Assembly: GCA_002711995.1 (NCBI GenBank)
Contig: PASN01000010.1
Span: 318,485 to 382,484, forward strand
Reading direction: 5' to 3'
DNA: 64,000 bases
Source: Halobacteriovoraceae bacterium
GTDB lineage: Bacteria > Bdellovibrionota > Bacteriovoracia > Bacteriovoracales > Bacteriovoracaceae
The translations under genes were made by a program, and so were the position numbers. Below, piece after piece: positions 17,070-28,362 of this stretch (its first letter is position 1; every line of letters begins with the position of its first letter). The notes under the pieces are model-generated. The model saw only the letters and a program-made list of their open reading frames with translations, was not told the DNA's origin and did no database searches.

Positions 17070-17846
17070 ATGAACACAGAGATTATAGAAATCACAAATA
17101 ACTTTTGGAACATTCGCGGCTCTTTTAAGATAAAAGGCCTAATTGATATTGGAACCCACGCCTCCTTAGTTAAACTGGCCAGTGGAAAGTTTGTGTTTTT
17201 GGACTCTTTAACTTTGGACAATGACACGCTGGAGAAAGTCAACAGACTTACCAAAGATGGAGATGACTTAGAGGCGGTGATTAACCTCCATCCCTTTCAC
17301 ACAGTTCACACAGAATGGATGCATAAGACATTTCCCAATGCCAAACATTATGGAACCAAAAGACATTTGGAGAAGTTTCCAAGTTTAAACTGGGAAGAGG
17401 TAAAAAGTGAGGATGAGAAGCTCCACAAGCTGTACTCATCAGACTTAGAGTTTTCTGTGCCGAAAGGAGTAGATTTTATTCCAGAGGATGAGAACCTTCA
17501 CTTCTCTTCTGTACTCGCCTACCACCCTAGTTCTAAAACCATTCATGTTGATGACACATTAATGTATATTCAGTTGCCTGCGCTTTTAAAGTTTTTTGGA
17601 GTCTCAGACCATCTAGGGTTTCATCCAACACTTTCTAAGGTTTTGCAAAAAAGAAGTGGAGCTGCGGACGAGTTTAATCTGTGGGCAAAAGAAATGGCAG
17701 CCTCCTGGGCAGGCGCTAAAAACCTTTGTACTGCTCATAAGGGCAATATTCTAGAGAACGAGGATAGAGATCTACATAAAGAAATACTCAAGGCCATCGA
17801 AAGTATTCAGATCAAGTTAAACTCTCACCGAAATAAATATACCTAG
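17070..17846 (+). CDS. Metallo-beta-lactamase-like (DUF4336-like) protein
   Basis: The protein is 258 residues. The order NFWNIRGSFKIKGLIDIGTH, FVFLDSLTL, then AVINLHPFHTVHTEWM with closely spaced His, then FPNAKHYGTKRH, and later HVDDTLMYI and TAHKGNI follows metallo-beta-lactamase-fold proteins of the DUF4336 kind. The HPFHTVH cluster could bind metal, although the canonical HxHxDH is not intact. Probably cytoplasmic, as no signal peptide is seen. It converges on the PLP decarboxylase gene with a 4-base overlap. No Shine-Dalgarno precedes the ATG. The fold assignment is tentative. Confidence 0.6.
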   Translation: MNTEIIEITNNFWNIRGSFKIKGLIDIGTHASLVKLASGKFVFLDSLTLDNDTLEKVNRLTKDGDDLEAVINLHPFHTVHTEWMHKTFPNAKHYGTKRHLEKFPSLNWEEVKSEDEKLHKLYSSDLEFSVPKGVDFIPEDENLHFSSVLAYHPSSKTIHVDDTLMYIQLPALLKFFGVSDHLGFHPTLSKVLQKRSGAADEFNLWAKEMAASWAGAKNLCTAHKGNILENEDRDLHKEILKAIESIQIKLNSHRNKYT

Positions 17847-19066
17847 CTCCAAAACTGAATAAGCTTATCGATAGTTTCTCGCTCTTTAATGATGCGTACT
17901 TTTCCAGAATCTACTCCCAATACCTTTGGGGTAAATCTTGAGCAGTGTCTAGACCACATGGAAAGGGTATAGGCGCCGACATCGTGTATGAGCAATAGAT
18001 CTCCCTCTTCAATTGTTGGCAAACAGACCTCTCTAGTGAGAAAATCGCCGCCAAAACATAGGGGGCCGGCCACACTGTAAGTCTTGGACTCTTTAGAGAT
18101 TATTTCTCCATCACTGCTTAAAGCGGACATTTGGTGGTACCAATCGTTTGGTTTATAAATCCTTCGAAGAAACATATCGGCACCAAGGTGAGCAACAATC
18201 TGTTTATCCTCTTTTACATATTCAACGTTTGACACAGCAATTGCCGTGTCAGAGTAAATGCGTCGTCCAAACTCAGTAAGCAGCTGAAACCTGCCAGAGA
18301 ATAATTCAGGCATCGCGCGCTCTAAGGCCTCTGTGTATTCTTTAAAACCAACCTTAGGGTCATCTTCTCTGTAAACCACAGGAAGTCCGCCACCCAAGTC
18401 AAAGCGCTCAAGCCCTGACAGATCTTTTGTGGCCTCAAAAACTTTTAAAGTTCCTGCAACAAGCTCATCAATGGCCATTGCCTGAGAGCCTATGTGAACA
18501 TGCACACCAACAAGCCAAGAGTGTTTATCAAACGCACTTTTAATCTTGTCCATCCAGTCGTTCAATTTTACTCCAAACTTGGAGTCTTTACCGGCCACCG
18601 AAGTGTCACCAATTTTTCCAACCCCAATTTGTGGGTTAATTCTTAGCCCTGCTTTGAATTCACTTTGTCCCACTAGAGAATTAACTCTATCCAGTTCCTC
18701 AAAACTGTCGATATTGATGTAAATATTCTTTTCGATACAGAACTGAATCTCACTTTTAGTTTTTGCAGGTCCATCAAAGATTATCTTTTCCGCAGGCACT
18801 CCGCTTGCCAGTGCGATTTGAACCTCCTCTAAAGAGGCCGCTTCTGCGCCAAGCCCGTTTTCTGCTTGTAATCTAAGCATAAATGGAAGCGGACATGCCT
18901 TAATTGCTATCCCATGAACGGTATTTTTAGGAAATGCATCCTTTAGTTCAGCATAGCGATCTTTAACCAAACCTAGGTCATAGAGGATATAGGCCGAATC
19001 ATCTTCAGATAATACTTCAGAGCTATTTATTAATTTTACTAGTTCTTGAGATTTATTGATTTGCAT
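17843..19066 (-). CDS. Ornithine/diaminopimelate-type PLP decarboxylase (fold type III)
   Basis: Alanine-racemase-fold decarboxylase of 407 residues. The Schiff-base lysine lies in HGIAIKACPLP (Lys53), a variant of the usual YAxKAN. Then come GLGAEAASLEEV, FDGPAKTKSEI, GLRINPQIG, the His of VGVHVHIGSQ, the phosphate-binding FDLGGGLPV, EFGRRIYSD and GPLCFGGDFL with Cys, as in LysA-like enzymes. It should decarboxylate an amino acid such as diaminopimelate or a related compound. Its start overlaps the upstream PLP gene by 14 bases with GAGGAAG as ribosome site, so the two are coupled. It may be lysA, but the pairing suggests another product. Confidence 0.82.
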   Translation of the reverse strand: MQINKSQELVKLINSSEVLSEDDSAYILYDLGLVKDRYAELKDAFPKNTVHGIAIKACPLPFMLRLQAENGLGAEAASLEEVQIALASGVPAEKIIFDGPAKTKSEIQFCIEKNIYINIDSFEELDRVNSLVGQSEFKAGLRINPQIGVGKIGDTSVAGKDSKFGVKLNDWMDKIKSAFDKHSWLVGVHVHIGSQAMAIDELVAGTLKVFEATKDLSGLERFDLGGGLPVVYREDDPKVGFKEYTEALERAMPELFSGRFQLLTEFGRRIYSDTAIAVSNVEYVKEDKQIVAHLGADMFLRRIYKPNDWYHQMSALSSDGEIISKESKTYSVAGPLCFGGDFLTREVCLPTIEEGDLLLIHDVGAYTLSMWSRHCSRFTPKVLGVDSGKVRIIKERETIDKLIQFWS

Positions 19067-20861
19067 TTACTTCTTCCTCAACCAGATCAAAAAGCTTGTT
19101 CAGTAGCTTTTGATCGTTGTTAATTAAATATTCAAGACAATCGTCAAAATTGTAACTGCTCGTGCCTCGGTAAGCGTCTGTTACGTTCTTTGCACCAAGT
19201 GCGACCCTAAGCGCAAACCTCTTCTTATCTCCGGTGGAGATTTGAACCGGCTGCCCTATTTCACAAACAATATCCTCGGGAAAGCGCTTAACAGTCATGG
19301 CCGCGTGAATCTTTTTAAGTTGATCCTGACTAAAGGCCGGAGTTGTTTCAATCTCGAAAGGTATAATACTGTTGGCCTGGGACAGGGAGCTGTCATCACT
19401 TGGTAAAAGAGCGCTCTCTTTTAAGATATTTACCTTAAACTTGCCAGACTCAATCATTTTCTCAACACGCTTTCCCCACTTCAAAATAAAGAGATTGCTA
19501 AACTCTACGGGTATGCTGTCAAACTGTTTCATTTCGTGAAGCGCCACTTCCCATCGCATATACAATCCCCAGTTGGACCAAGTTTTGGAACTAGGGCTTC
19601 TTTTGAAAATCTCATTTATGCCAAATTCGTCAAAGTACTGATCATATTCTGATGGAAGCTCCATCTTGGACTCAATTAGGGTTTTAGTGTCATGCTCATT
19701 TAACAATAAGGCACCTGAGAAAGGCGCTCCCCCTATAAACTTTGAACCAGTAACAATGACATTCATTCCAAGCTCAAGGTATTGCTCTACGGAGTCACTT
19801 CTTAAACGCATTTGAGCGGCATCAACAATCATTACAACTTTGTCGCCAAAGTCTTTTTTTATCTTCATGGCCATGTCATAGGAAGGAATGCAAACACCGG
19901 TTTTTGAGGCGTGCACATAGTGAAAAACAACAACCCTGTCATCCTCCACCTGCTCCTTAACTTTATCGTATAGTTTTTGCTCTGAAGCTTTTGAATTAAT
20001 AACGTTTGTTTGTTCATCCCTTGTGTGAAAACTTTGAACAATTACATCGAGATTTGAATCATCAACGACATTTTCTCCTTTTTTAAGATCATGCCCAATG
20101 GGTGCCCTTCCAGAGAAGTGATTCAGTCCTGCGGCAAGTTTTGTTCCAGAGCCAACTTCCAAATCTCCATTTACAAAAACACACACTTTCTTGTGCTCTT
20201 TCTTAAAAAGTTCTTCGTGGCGACTCAGTCCAAGCCAGGTGCAGAGAAATTCGACGTCAGTTCCCGACGGAGTGGATATCAATGACACCTTTTCCTTTAT
20301 CAAAGGAGAAACGTAAAAAGAGAATATCTCATCCCTTTGCTTGTGCAGCAAAGTCTCTTTGTCCAGTTCACCAATTGCGTGTGCCGCCATTAGCTCAAAA
20401 TGGTTTTGCTCAATATGAAGATATGTCTCCAGAGAAACGCTAGAGCTTGTGCAGCTTGAGCGCTGATAGTCATATAAAGGTAATGTGGATGTGTGATATT
20501 TGTTTTTAAGCGTATTAGGGTCAATCGTGCTTCGATCATCACCACCTTGAGAGAGCAGCAAAAATGTTGGCATGTATAGCCAGTCCTCATCGCTTTTAAT
20601 ATCTGAGACTAGATCCTCACCTTCTTTAAAGCGAATAAGCTTTTCTCTCATTTTGTTTGCGATATTGGCCTTAAGATCCTGACTTAATTCTTTGTTCGTT
20701 ACACCAAGTCGATAAGAGATGTAGTCTTCAAAGGTGTCTTCAGCGTACTTGCCGGATAGAAGTTCAAGGTAGTTAAGAACAGGGGCGCCGTCTTCAAAAA
20801 TATAGTAAACGCCATTCTTCATCAAACGTATGTTATTGTTTTTACTTAGCTTCTCTAGCAT
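19053..20861 (-). CDS. Fold-type I PLP enzyme, first gene of a two-PLP-enzyme operon
   Basis: The protein is 602 residues. The C-terminal two-thirds reads as a type I aminotransferase fold: SLISTPSGTDVEF (phosphate-binding loop), VFHYVHASKTG, the ring-pairing Asp in VVMIVDAAQMRLRSD, and the Schiff-base lysine in IVTGSKFIGGAPFSGALLL. The first 200 residues have no clear match. It resembles class V or group II PLP enzymes, but the reaction cannot be named. GAAGGA precedes the ATG. The downstream decarboxylase starts inside this gene, so both proteins are made together and probably act on one amino-acid-like pathway. Confidence 0.7.
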   Translation of the reverse strand: MLEKLSKNNNIRLMKNGVYYIFEDGAPVLNYLELLSGKYAEDTFEDYISYRLGVTNKELSQDLKANIANKMREKLIRFKEGEDLVSDIKSDEDWLYMPTFLLLSQGGDDRSTIDPNTLKNKYHTSTLPLYDYQRSSCTSSSVSLETYLHIEQNHFELMAAHAIGELDKETLLHKQRDEIFSFYVSPLIKEKVSLISTPSGTDVEFLCTWLGLSRHEELFKKEHKKVCVFVNGDLEVGSGTKLAAGLNHFSGRAPIGHDLKKGENVVDDSNLDVIVQSFHTRDEQTNVINSKASEQKLYDKVKEQVEDDRVVVFHYVHASKTGVCIPSYDMAMKIKKDFGDKVVMIVDAAQMRLRSDSVEQYLELGMNVIVTGSKFIGGAPFSGALLLNEHDTKTLIESKMELPSEYDQYFDEFGINEIFKRSPSSKTWSNWGLYMRWEVALHEMKQFDSIPVEFSNLFILKWGKRVEKMIESGKFKVNILKESALLPSDDSSLSQANSIIPFEIETTPAFSQDQLKKIHAAMTVKRFPEDIVCEIGQPVQISTGDKKRFALRVALGAKNVTDAYRGTSSYNFDDCLEYLINNDQKLLNKLFDLVEEEVNANQ

Positions 20862-24531: not shown

Positions 24532-27500
24532 ATGAGTAAAAATAAATGGACATTTTGGATCGACTGCGGCGGAACCTTTACTGACATTGTTGCCATCAAT
24601 GACTCAGGTGAACACCGCGTTCACAAGCTTCTATCTCACTCCTCCCACTATGAATCAGCAGTGGTGCAAGGAATTTCCGATATAGTGGGACATACCGATT
24701 TCAAGAGCTCTGTCGCAGAAGTGAGACTGGGAACCACAGTTGCCACTAATGCCTTTTTAGAAAGAAGCGGTGTCGAGTGTGCTTTGATCACAACATTAGG
24801 CCATAAAGACTTGCTGGGGATTAGGAATCAAAGTCGCCCAGATCTATTTGAATTAGATATTAATAAAACTCCTCCTCTTTACAGCTTTGTCACTCATATA
24901 AAAGGACGCATGGACAGCAAGGGTGAGGAAGTCGTAGAACTTGATGAAGAAATCGCAAGATTTGAGCTGCAAAGAATTTTGGACAGAGGGATAAAGTCTG
25001 TTGCCATATCTCTTATGCATTCAACTGTTAATCCCGCTCATGAGTTAAAAGTTTGGGAAATTGCAAAAGATATGGGCTTTAGCTACATAAGTCTGTCCCA
25101 TCAGGTGAGTCCAATCGCGAAATACATCCCACGGACAGAGACTGCAGTAATTGACGCCTATCTTTCTCCCTACTTGCGTCAATATACTGAGTATCTTGAA
25201 AACAAGCTTCAAATACCAAACATCTACTATATGCAATCTGATGGAGGCCTTTGTTCAGGAAGCGAACTTAAAGGCTACAATGCTCTTCTTTCAGGCCCTG
25301 CCGGAGGACTAATTGGAGCTATAGATGTCGCTCGCTCTATGGGCCATTCCAAACTCATAACCTTTGATATGGGCGGAACTTCGACAGATGTTGCGATCTA
25401 TGACCAGGAGTTGTCAATAGATCCCTCCCCTGACTTTTATGGATTAAAACTTCTTTGCCCAATGGTTGATATACATACAGTTGCCGCAGGCGGTGGCTCC
25501 ATACTTAAATACGACAATGGCCGCTTTCAAGTTGGCCCTGAGTCAGCAGGTTCTACACCTGGCCCTGCATGCTACAGAAACGGTGGACCACTTACTGTTA
25601 CTGATGCCAATCTATACTTGGACCGACTTGAAGCTGACAAGTTCCCACACATTTTTGGTCCGAACCAAGATCGGCCTCTTGATCTAGAAATCGTTGATAA
25701 GAAATTCAAAGAACTGGAAGATAAAGTGGGAATGCCCGCAAAAGAGATCGCCCAGGGATTTCTTGATGTCGCAGTGGAAAGTATGAGCCGCGCCATTCGA
25801 AAGGTATCCATTGAGCGAGGACAGGATCCAAAAGACTTTTGTCTTGTAAGCTTTGGAGGCGCAGCAGGACAGCTTGCTCTTAAAGTGGCGCAGACTTTAT
25901 CAATGAGTGAGGTAATTATTCACCCATTAAGTTCTGTGCTCTCTGCATATGGCATTGGCAAGGCCCAACACCAAATGAGCTTCCAGGGAAGAAGTGAGTC
26001 AGACTTTAAAGAACTGGAAAGCAAAGCAAAAGAAAACTTTCCCTTCAAGAACCCAACTCTTCATAAACATTATCTTCTAAAGGCAAAAGGCAGTGATCAC
26101 GAAGTTGAGATCTCGGCGGATGATCAAGAAAAAGCTTTTGAAAAGTTTAGAAACTACCATCAAAAAACCTTTGGCCACCCGGCCAAAGAGATTGAGTGTG
26201 AAGCGGTTAAGCTTCAAATAACTTCCAAAGACTTTAAAGAGTTGCAAATCCATGCTGATTCTAAAGAGATCGAAGGGCCAAGCATCATCAGTGAGAACAA
26301 CACCTCCATTGTAGTGGAGTCCGGTTGGCAGGGCCAACGCCAAGATGATGGCCTTTGGGTTTTAAGATCCCATAATGCAAATAGCACTCAGAAAAGAGAT
26401 CCCAAAATTGAGCTTGAGATCTTTTACCAACGCTTTCAATTTATCGCTGAACAAATGGGAACAACACTTCAAAGACTTGCGGCCTCAATCAACATAAAAG
26501 AGAGAAACGACTTCTCCTGCGCTTTATTTACAAGAGACTGTGAATTGATCGCCAACGCTCCCCACATTCCAGTTCACCTGGGATCGATGGACAGAGCGGT
26601 CAGAGCTGTAAATGAAACATGTGATGTCTCACCAGGAGAAAGCTATATATTAAACTCCCCTGTATGCGGTGGGACTCACCTGCCAGATGTGACCATTATC
26701 ACTCCGGTCTTTAGTGAAGATGAGGTTATCATGTGGGTGGCCTCAAGAGGTCACCATGCGGACATTGGAGGCATAGCCCATGGTTCGATGCCTGGAAACT
26801 CAAAAAGCCTTAAAGAAGAAGGTGTAGTCATTACTCCCACAAAGATCTTTGCTAATGGAGAGCTGGATCTCCCCCTTCTAAAAAAGATACTGCAAGATTC
26901 AACATATCCGGTAAGAAATTTCGATATGAACCTGCACGACATAGAGGCCAAGATTTCTGCAAACCACAAAGGGGTCTCAGAAATCATACAGTTGGCAAAA
27001 CAGTACGGAGCTCAATACCTTGAACAAATGAGTGAGAGAATTCTAGACTACACTCACCAAAAAATTGTATCGATTCTAAACGAGTTCAAATCAAGCGAGA
27101 CCGAGAAGGTCATAAACAGCAAAAGGAAGCTCAAGGTTAAAATGCAAAGAGAGGGAGAAAAGACTGTCTTTGATTTCACAGGTTCCAGTGGACTCTTGGG
27201 AACAAATTTCAACGCTCCAGTTCCTGTGGTGCAGGCCTCTGTAATGTTCAGCCTACGCTCAATGATCGAAGAAAACATTCCACTTAACAGCGGCCTTATG
27301 CGAGCAATTGAACTGAAAGTTCCACAGGATTCGATGTTAAACCCTGGCGAGGACTCTCCCGTTGTTGCTGGCAACGTGGAAACATCTCAAGCGATCTGTG
27401 ACCTTATATTCCAAGCAATGGGTGTCAAGGCCAACAGCTATGGCAGTATGAACAATCTATCCTTTGGAAATGATGAGTTCCAATACTATGAGACAATCTG

Positions 27501-28362
27501 TGGAGGAAGCGGCGCTACTGCGAGTGCTCATGGCGCGAGTGCCGTGCAAGTAAACATGACAAATTCGCTACTAACCGATCCTGAAGTTTTTGAAACTCGC
27601 CTTCCAGTTAGAATTGAGCTTATGGGCATTCGCCATGGAAGTGGCGGTGCTGGTATGAATCATGGTGGGAATGGCGTGTACCGGAAGCTTTTATTTCTAA
27701 GTGATGTAAAAATAAATATGATAACCCAATCAAGAGAAGTTCCTCCTTCGGGAATCAAAGGCGGCGCAAAAGCGCAACGAGGAATGAATCTTCTTGAGGT
27801 GGACGGCGAATGGGTTGAGCTGCCGGAGTGTTTTGAAAAAGAAATTAGCGCCAATACCAGACTATGCGTTTGCACACCGGGCGGCGGTGGATATGGCGAA
27901 GGAAAAGATGAAACAAAACATCTTGTTTTTGGCTTTGGGTCTAATATGGATCTTGCGCAAATCAAAAAGCGCTGTCCAAGCAGCGAGCTAGTTAGAAGAG
28001 GCACTGTTAACGATCGCGAAATAAGATATACTCGCTACTCCCCTGTTAGAAAGGGCGGCGTTGCAGATATGTACAATGCTCCTGGGCATTATGTGTATGG
28101 ACTGGTCGTTTCAATGAACGACGAAGATTTAACGTTTCTTGATGATATTGAATGCGCTCAAAACGGCTATCAGAGAATTGAGACTAAGGCATTTGACGAC
28201 AACGGTGAAGAGTTCATTTGTCACAGCTATGATGTAATTGATAAAAAACCAGATATAGCGCCAACAAAAGTCTATGAGTGGCTGGTGTATTCGGGTGCCT
28301 ACAACTTAGGGGCCAACCAAAACTACCTAGACCGCCTCCAATTGGCCGGACATGTGCGATAG
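24532..28362 (+). CDS. 5-oxoprolinase (HyuA-HyuB) fused to gamma-glutamylcyclotransferase
   Basis: Single 1276-residue polypeptide. Residues 1-620 are the hydantoinase A half, with the ATP-binding actin-like motifs IDCGGTFTDIV (N-terminal) and FDMGGTSTDVAI (about 282). Residues 625-1125 are the hydantoinase B half (GTTLQRLAASINIKERND, GGTHLPDVT, RGHHADIGG). Together these are a complete ATP-dependent 5-oxoprolinase. From residue 1129 (base 27916) a gamma-glutamylcyclotransferase domain follows: LVFGFGSNMDLAQI, YVYGLVVSMN, LDDIECAQNGYQ with Glu1207 at the catalytic position, and an end like human GGCT (YSGAYNLGANQNYLDRL). The first activity would release 5-oxoproline from gamma-glutamyl compounds and the second would open it to glutamate. 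Cytoplasmic; monocistronic. Confidence 0.88.
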   Translation: MSKNKWTFWIDCGGTFTDIVAINDSGEHRVHKLLSHSSHYESAVVQGISDIVGHTDFKSSVAEVRLGTTVATNAFLERSGVECALITTLGHKDLLGIRNQSRPDLFELDINKTPPLYSFVTHIKGRMDSKGEEVVELDEEIARFELQRILDRGIKSVAISLMHSTVNPAHELKVWEIAKDMGFSYISLSHQVSPIAKYIPRTETAVIDAYLSPYLRQYTEYLENKLQIPNIYYMQSDGGLCSGSELKGYNALLSGPAGGLIGAIDVARSMGHSKLITFDMGGTSTDVAIYDQELSIDPSPDFYGLKLLCPMVDIHTVAAGGGSILKYDNGRFQVGPESAGSTPGPACYRNGGPLTVTDANLYLDRLEADKFPHIFGPNQDRPLDLEIVDKKFKELEDKVGMPAKEIAQGFLDVAVESMSRAIRKVSIERGQDPKDFCLVSFGGAAGQLALKVAQTLSMSEVIIHPLSSVLSAYGIGKAQHQMSFQGRSESDFKELESKAKENFPFKNPTLHKHYLLKAKGSDHEVEISADDQEKAFEKFRNYHQKTFGHPAKEIECEAVKLQITSKDFKELQIHADSKEIEGPSIISENNTSIVVESGWQGQRQDDGLWVLRSHNANSTQKRDPKIELEIFYQRFQFIAEQMGTTLQRLAASINIKERNDFSCALFTRDCELIANAPHIPVHLGSMDRAVRAVNETCDVSPGESYILNSPVCGGTHLPDVTIITPVFSEDEVIMWVASRGHHADIGGIAHGSMPGNSKSLKEEGVVITPTKIFANGELDLPLLKKILQDSTYPVRNFDMNLHDIEAKISANHKGVSEIIQLAKQYGAQYLEQMSERILDYTHQKIVSILNEFKSSETEKVINSKRKLKVKMQREGEKTVFDFTGSSGLLGTNFNAPVPVVQASVMFSLRSMIEENIPLNSGLMRAIELKVPQDSMLNPGEDSPVVAGNVETSQAICDLIFQAMGVKANSYGSMNNLSFGNDEFQYYETICGGSGATASAHGASAVQVNMTNSLLTDPEVFETRLPVRIELMGIRHGSGGAGMNHGGNGVYRKLLFLSDVKINMITQSREVPPSGIKGGAKAQRGMNLLEVDGEWVELPECFEKEISANTRLCVCTPGGGGYGEGKDETKHLVFGFGSNMDLAQIKKRCPSSELVRRGTVNDREIRYTRYSPVRKGGVADMYNAPGHYVYGLVVSMNDEDLTFLDDIECAQNGYQRIETKAFDDNGEEFICHSYDVIDKKPDIAPTKVYEWLVYSGAYNLGANQNYLDRLQLAGHVR

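Follow-up and report, generated by a model that had tools for sequence, protein, structure and literature searches.

We analysed a window of 64,000 nucleotides from a Halobacteriovoraceae bacterium (assembly GCA_002711995.1, contig PASN01000010.1, positions 318,485 to 382,484 of the forward strand), with attention to two overlapping genes on its minus strand, here called gene A and gene B, both of which code for pyridoxal 5'-phosphate (PLP) enzymes. It is reasonably probable, in our assessment, that the two genes constitute a two-enzyme biosynthetic module, probably one that makes an unusual amine. The gene A enzyme would make or remodel a non-protein alpha-amino acid, and the gene B enzyme would then remove the alpha-carboxyl of this product, releasing an amine or a shorter amino acid. 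The features of the pair are as follows.

19053..20861, minus strand: gene A, fold-type I PLP enzyme of 602 amino acids (aa), without a family name in Pfam, NCBIfam or PDB
17843..19066, minus strand: gene B, PLP decarboxylase of the alanine-racemase fold (LysA/ornithine decarboxylase (ODC) type), 407 aa, from its open reading frame (ORF) and family match
19053..19066, minus strand: 14-bp overlap of genes A and B, read from the ORFs
19073..19079, minus strand: GAGGAAG, a Shine-Dalgarno-like string inside gene A ahead of the gene B start, from the sequence, with a putative function
20577..20861, minus strand: N-terminal extension of gene A, residues 1-95, from alignment with relatives
19740-19742, minus strand: codon of the gene A Schiff-base Lys374, invariant in 12 aligned relatives
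18899-18901, minus strand: codon of gene B Lys56, the PLP lysine by alignment
18053-18055, minus strand: codon of gene B Phe338, at the site of Glu315 of the Thermotoga diaminopimelate (DAP) decarboxylase (TmDAPDC) by alignment, with site roles from the available text of PMC8277567
Minus strand: gene B catalytic Cys337, by alignment, with site roles from the same text

Layout and Conservation of the Gene Pair

Gene A comes first on the minus strand and is followed by gene B. A first-pass annotation, made from the sequence alone, had described an overlapping ORF pair with a 14-base overlap, and had pointed out the strings VDAAQMR and VTGSKFIGG in gene A and AIKAC in gene B; both ORFs and all three strings are indeed there. 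The overlap suggests translational coupling. The annotation's stronger wording, that the two genes are strictly co-translated, goes too far: coupling is likely, but the 14-bp overlap of the window becomes an 11-bp overlap in one related genome (G001) and a 10-bp gap in another (G014). The GAGGAAG string is also found at the G001 junction. A scan for promoters and terminators returned fewer predicted sites than were found in shuffled sequences, and was uninformative.

The window's own genome (G000; Bacteriovoracaceae, 3.7 Mb, 23 contigs) was compared with others of its phylum. Matches to a gene A profile built from three sequences were found in three of the 368 genomes, and a gene B profile found the same three at E<=1e-60, a threshold that we chose to exclude other decarboxylases. 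In all three (G000, G001 and G014) the two genes are adjacent and in the same order. G001 belongs to the same genus as the window genome and G014 to another genus of the same family; identity to the window proteins is 80% and 44%, respectively, for gene A, and 75% and 47% for gene B. The pair is therefore more than a chance arrangement, since it is shared by three genomes from two genera, with identities of 44-80%, and conservation elsewhere, on which the annotation had made its proposal depend, is borne out. Neither gene was found by profile search in the third genome of the window's genus, G002. Completeness is 82% for G001 and 66% for G014, so that absence from incomplete genomes is soft evidence; among genomes at least 90% complete, gene A is present in one of 234, the window's own. 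A single-protein scan of genome contigs returned the G001 contig as its sole match.

The surroundings of the pair are not conserved. The two genes flanking it in the window were not found in G001, G002 or G014. In G001 it is flanked by a YcaO gene and a gene for an outer-membrane-like protein, which differ from the neighbours in G014, which we take to be genes for secreted proteins and others. As the flanks differ between genomes while A and B stay adjacent, the pair appears to be kept together as its surroundings change.

Gene A Represents an Unnamed Family of Fold Type I PLP Enzymes

Gene A matched none of the Pfam or NCBIfam families at E<=1. A search of PDB sequences gave nothing beyond one match at E 0.14, and a PDB profile search with seven relatives gave a single match (E 0.021), to an unrelated protein. 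Alignment of 12 family members revealed 48 invariant positions, including Asp347, Gln350 and Lys374, and the invariant motifs GGDxR, ExGSG and SKT. When the family alignment was compared by hhalign with 25 class V sequences from relatives (30 Aminotran_5 loci fetched, L034-L061 taken, 25 kept by length), the probability was 95.8% (P 8e-9), and both VDAAQ and the lysine aligned in register (Asp347, Gln350, Lys374). Controls were negative (0.1% for seven LysA/ODC-type sequences and 0.2% for reversed class V), and a set of PF00282 sequences, 26 used out of 30 fetched loci, gave 27.6% (P 0.00065). Foldseek and VIA searches with a low-confidence AlphaFold model of gene A (mean pLDDT 52.1) returned mostly PLP enzymes of fold type I, the leading structures including PvdN, Egt2, kynureninase and SufS; the best VIA row (Z 9.0, rmsd 3.5, 139 aligned) is weak by itself. 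We conclude that the gene A product belongs to PLP fold type I, where it constitutes a separate family close to class V (NifS-like). The available portions of the literature on Y4yA, rhizobial PLP enzymes linked to nonribosomal peptide synthetases (NRPS), PLP clusters for noncanonical amino acids, and pSMED03 contained no recognised description of this family.

The first 95 residues form an extension that is present in the three Bacteriovoracaceae proteins and absent from the rhizobial relatives described below. It is about half of the 200-residue N-terminal part described in the first-pass annotation; the plasmid-borne relatives align from about residue 96. When predicted alone, the extension consists of three strands followed by three helices (mean pLDDT 58.6). 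Recognition elements (RRE) of ribosomally synthesized and post-translationally modified peptides (RiPP) likewise have strands followed by helices. Comparison with known structures gave a best Foldseek E of 1.2 and a best VIA Z of 3.2 (rmsd 2.9, 49 aligned), and the Foldseek and VIA rows included no RRE or PqqD structure, a result that still allows either. By hhalign, the extension did not match the YcaO N-terminus, a PqqD-like protein of G001, or a 137-aa protein of the window's own genome.

Gene B Is Probably Not a Lysine-Pathway Enzyme

The gene B protein matches PF02784 and PF00278 and has the PLP lysine and the catalytic Cys. By sequence, its closest solved relatives are DAP decarboxylases (E 7.6e-41). 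On the lysA equivalog model TIGR01048 it scores 253.4 bits, short of the cut-off of 297.9, and the G001 and G014 proteins also remain below it (238.4 and 232.4 bits, respectively). Gene B is one of four PF02784 genes in the genome. The first-pass annotation had named gene B being the only lysA as grounds for giving up its proposal; a separate LysA is in fact encoded on contig C15 (412.4 bits on TIGR01048, above the cut-off), presumably next to pyrE/pyrF-like genes. SpeA, encoded on contig C14, is above both SpeA cut-offs. The fourth gene, also on C14 (L004, 1108-2310), codes for a LysA-like protein of 400 aa that scores 201.9 bits on TIGR01048. Thr stands at the distal amine site of this protein, FQWGN takes the place of the HxGSQ of the others, and the gene adjoins what we take to be dapA/dapD-like genes.

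In TmDAPDC, Arg249 and Arg285 bind the distal carboxylate of the substrate and Glu315 binds the distal amine, and an E315F substitution lowers activity on meso-DAP from 675 to 36 mU/mg (PMC8277567, available text). The alignment register agrees with the genome's own LysA, whose spacings of 39, 30 and 28 equal those of the Thermotoga numbering; the earlier spacing, from Lys to Glu, differs (211 versus 200). In this alignment gene B retains both distal-site arginines, as Arg268 and Arg301, and has Phe338, beside the catalytic Cys337, at the Glu315 site. Phe also occupies this site in the G001 and G014 proteins and in relatives from Arthrobacter and Streptomyces (34% identity), while the genome's own LysA has Glu; in the same five proteins (window, G001, G014 and the two actinobacterial ones) EFGR replaces EPGR. 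The AIKAC string, which the annotation had singled out as a departure from AxKAN, says little, since the actinobacterial relatives have AAKAI and AVKAA at this site; the Glu-to-Phe change is more informative. Because gene B is below the equivalog cut-off, another gene of the genome passes it, and Phe338 stands at the Glu315 site, gene B is probably not a lysine-pathway enzyme. With both arginines kept and the distal-amine Glu replaced by Phe, its substrate probably lacks a free distal amine, and the pocket thus argues against DAP.

Relatives of Gene A in Rhizobia

A tblastn search of plasmids found a gene A relative in 33 records, all from genera of Rhizobiaceae (36 records with a Sinorhizobium query), at 20-26% identity (25-26% among the 20 matches listed). 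Ten of the 33 records were fetched and the neighbourhoods of nine were read; the tenth (L028), with its match in two pieces, was used for alignment only. In three of the nine, an NRPS or AMP-binding gene immediately precedes the relative; the two genes overlap by 4 bp in S. medicae and R. leguminosarum and are 27 bp apart in R. jaguaris. A PF00282 decarboxylase gene is the partner in R. tumorigenes and R. rhododendri, where it and the relative overlap by 1 bp (TGATG); these two cases are 95% alike and are probably one event.

The gene A family is thus found coupled to PLP decarboxylases of unrelated folds in two distant lineages. Repeated pairing would be expected if an amino acid intermediate were shared, and it therefore supports a two-step module leading from an amino acid to an amine; coming from two lineages, it is suggestive of such an intermediate.

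In the operon-like R. tumorigenes row (L021, 10155-14906), the order is a tetratricopeptide repeat (TPR) protein, the gene A relative, and the PF00282 decarboxylase. The TPR protein has a weak ATP-grasp-like match to Synapsin_C (E 0.00034, 20.6 bits versus a cut-off of 22.5). On a plasmid of R. leguminosarum Vaf10, three YcaO-like genes, SagB and a leader-binding protein for thiazole/oxazole-modified microcins (TOMM) occupy L031 35044-41533, approximately 14 kb from the gene A relative.

Proposed Module and Alternative Explanations

The gene pair, its coupling geometry, its conservation, both fold assignments, the intact cofactor residues and the pocket change are directly supported. Given the conservation of the pair, the separate lysA and the decarboxylase overlap in rhizobia, the proposal of the first-pass annotation, two coupled PLP steps that lead to an unusual amine, is the best reading of these data. 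We infer from them the order of steps (A before B), the substrate class, the product, including formation of an amine, and the biological role.

Several observations weigh against the biosynthetic module. The pair is known from only three genomes, two of them incomplete, and the AlphaFold model of gene A, made from three sequences, is poor. The E315F variant of TmDAPDC retains some activity on DAP (PMC8277567, available text), and a single substitution is not enough to define a substrate. In four of the nine rhizobial neighbourhoods neither a decarboxylase nor an NRPS gene adjoins the relative, and such a partner is therefore not obligatory. No further pathway genes were recognised beside the window pair when its flanks were read; the module would thus work alone or with distant genes.

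Gene B might instead be a second, diverged decarboxylase of DAP or a basic amino acid that serves ordinary lysine or polyamine metabolism, with gene A as an unrelated neighbour. We think this unlikely: the nearest named model and the PDB relatives of gene B are DAP decarboxylases, as are, by annotation, the actinobacterial relatives that share its pocket, but the genome has its own LysA and SpeA above their cut-offs, the distal amine residue is Phe, and gene B is tied to gene A in three of three genomes. Another view is that the pair tailors a peptide, a RiPP or NRPS product, in which gene A acts on a residue, bound to a carrier or peptide, that gene B trims. The NRPS and AMP-binding genes ahead of the relatives in S. 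medicae, R. jaguaris and R. leguminosarum would fit, as would the RRE-like order of strands and helices in the extension and the YcaO (SagD-like) gene approximately 140 bp downstream of the pair in G001. However, comparisons of the extension with the YcaO N-terminus, with a PqqD-like protein and with PDB folds gave nothing significant, and no RiPP genes were recognised by reading the flanks of the window pair. A RiPP reading drawn from the G001 YcaO neighbour was rejected: there is no such gene near the window pair, none was matched in G014 (a genome 66% complete), and in G001 a GC-rich inverted repeat with a T-run stands between the decarboxylase and YcaO genes. A role in peptide tailoring is, in our estimate, improbable.

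Relatives of the source bacterium are predators, and the pair could be catabolic, degrading a scavenged amino acid. Its scattered presence and isolated position agree with this, and the same-pocket actinobacterial decarboxylases have a PucR-type regulator or an APC permease as neighbour, as is usual for genes of uptake and breakdown. On the other hand, the genes next to the pair in the window, G001 and G014 include no recognised transporter or regulator, and the association of the rhizobial relatives with NRPS genes speaks for synthesis; we give the catabolic explanation little credence.

We thus prefer the biosynthetic module, and a wider proposal can be attached to it, tentatively and with considerable doubt. 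Gene A and its rhizobial relatives may be an undescribed PLP family with a chemistry of its own, whose product, a non-protein amino acid, would be passed to a LysA-fold decarboxylase in Bacteriovoracaceae, to an enzyme of the glutamate decarboxylase fold in tumour-associated rhizobia, or to an NRPS in Sinorhizobium and others; two decarboxylase folds would then have come to serve the same building block by separate recruitment. New amino acid chemistry is likely to be found among PLP enzymes that belong to no named family. The conserved partner narrows the search for it, to an alpha-amino acid that can be decarboxylated by a LysA-fold enzyme with a distal-site Phe, and the NRPS-linked relatives, on plasmids of cultured symbionts, offer tractable strains for identifying the building block. 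To our knowledge, little of the secondary metabolism of Bdellovibrionota seems to have been worked out.

Other Observations

A viral or phage origin of the pair was rejected, as no relative was found in viral contigs or phages, and PADLOC gave no defence match for the pair or its two flanking genes. A convergent metallo-beta-lactamase-like (MBL-like) gene follows the decarboxylase gene in both the window and R. tumorigenes, and we take this to be a coincidence. The best match of the window MBL-like gene was only DUF4336, at E 0.027, and the gene was not found in G001, G002 or G014.

Elsewhere in the window (24532-28362, plus strand), a protein of 1276 aa joins Hydant_A_N, Hydantoinase_A and Hydantoinase_B (5-oxoprolinase type) with a C-terminal gamma-glutamyl cyclotransferase-like domain. 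Judging by its domains, 5-oxoproline could be made and opened in one chain. In G001, the YcaO (SagD-like) gene that follows the pair (L008, 8480-10105) is cut by the contig end, and on another contig (C375, L018) a YcaO (SagD-like) gene adjoins a PqqD-like gene of 89 aa; the latter two genes are a probable thiazole/oxazole peptide cluster. On contig C4 of the window's own genome (L013), a short YcaO-like gene has a 137-aa gene upstream and, presumably, a glycosyltransferase-like neighbour.

Comparison with Known Systems

Gene B shares with LysA (TIGR01048) the alanine-racemase fold, both Pfam domains, the PLP lysine, the catalytic Cys, a Tyr and the two distal-site arginines, but differs in its score below the cut-off, in the Phe at the Glu315 site, in EFGR for EPGR and in AIKAC for AxKAN. 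Gene A has in common with the class V group (PF00266: NifS, SufS, kynureninase, PvdN, Egt2) a fold type I PLP domain with Asp347, Gln350 and Lys374 in register, but makes no direct hidden Markov model match to it at E<=1 and has its own motifs, GGDxR, ExGSG and SKT.

Closest in logic to the pair is Dat-Ddc (diaminobutyrate aminotransferase and decarboxylase), in which a fold-type I PLP enzyme and an adjacent PLP decarboxylase make an amine. Dat belongs to aminotransferase class III and Ddc to the PF00282 type; neither gene A nor gene B matched their models in family scans. The 1,3-diaminopropane route of Dat-Ddc is mentioned in the available text of PMC11531321. Recruitment of the LysA fold to a special substrate has a precedent in the citrylamino acid decarboxylases FslC/FigC and SbnH (PMC7857480, available text); gene B, however, scores 74.2 bits against an FslC cut-off of 500, and no synthetase for NRPS-independent siderophores (NIS) was seen near the pair by reading, no model search having been made for it. 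Genes A and B are best regarded as an unnamed branch within a known superfamily of enzymes, accompanied by a decarboxylase dedicated to it, rather than as a new kind of system.

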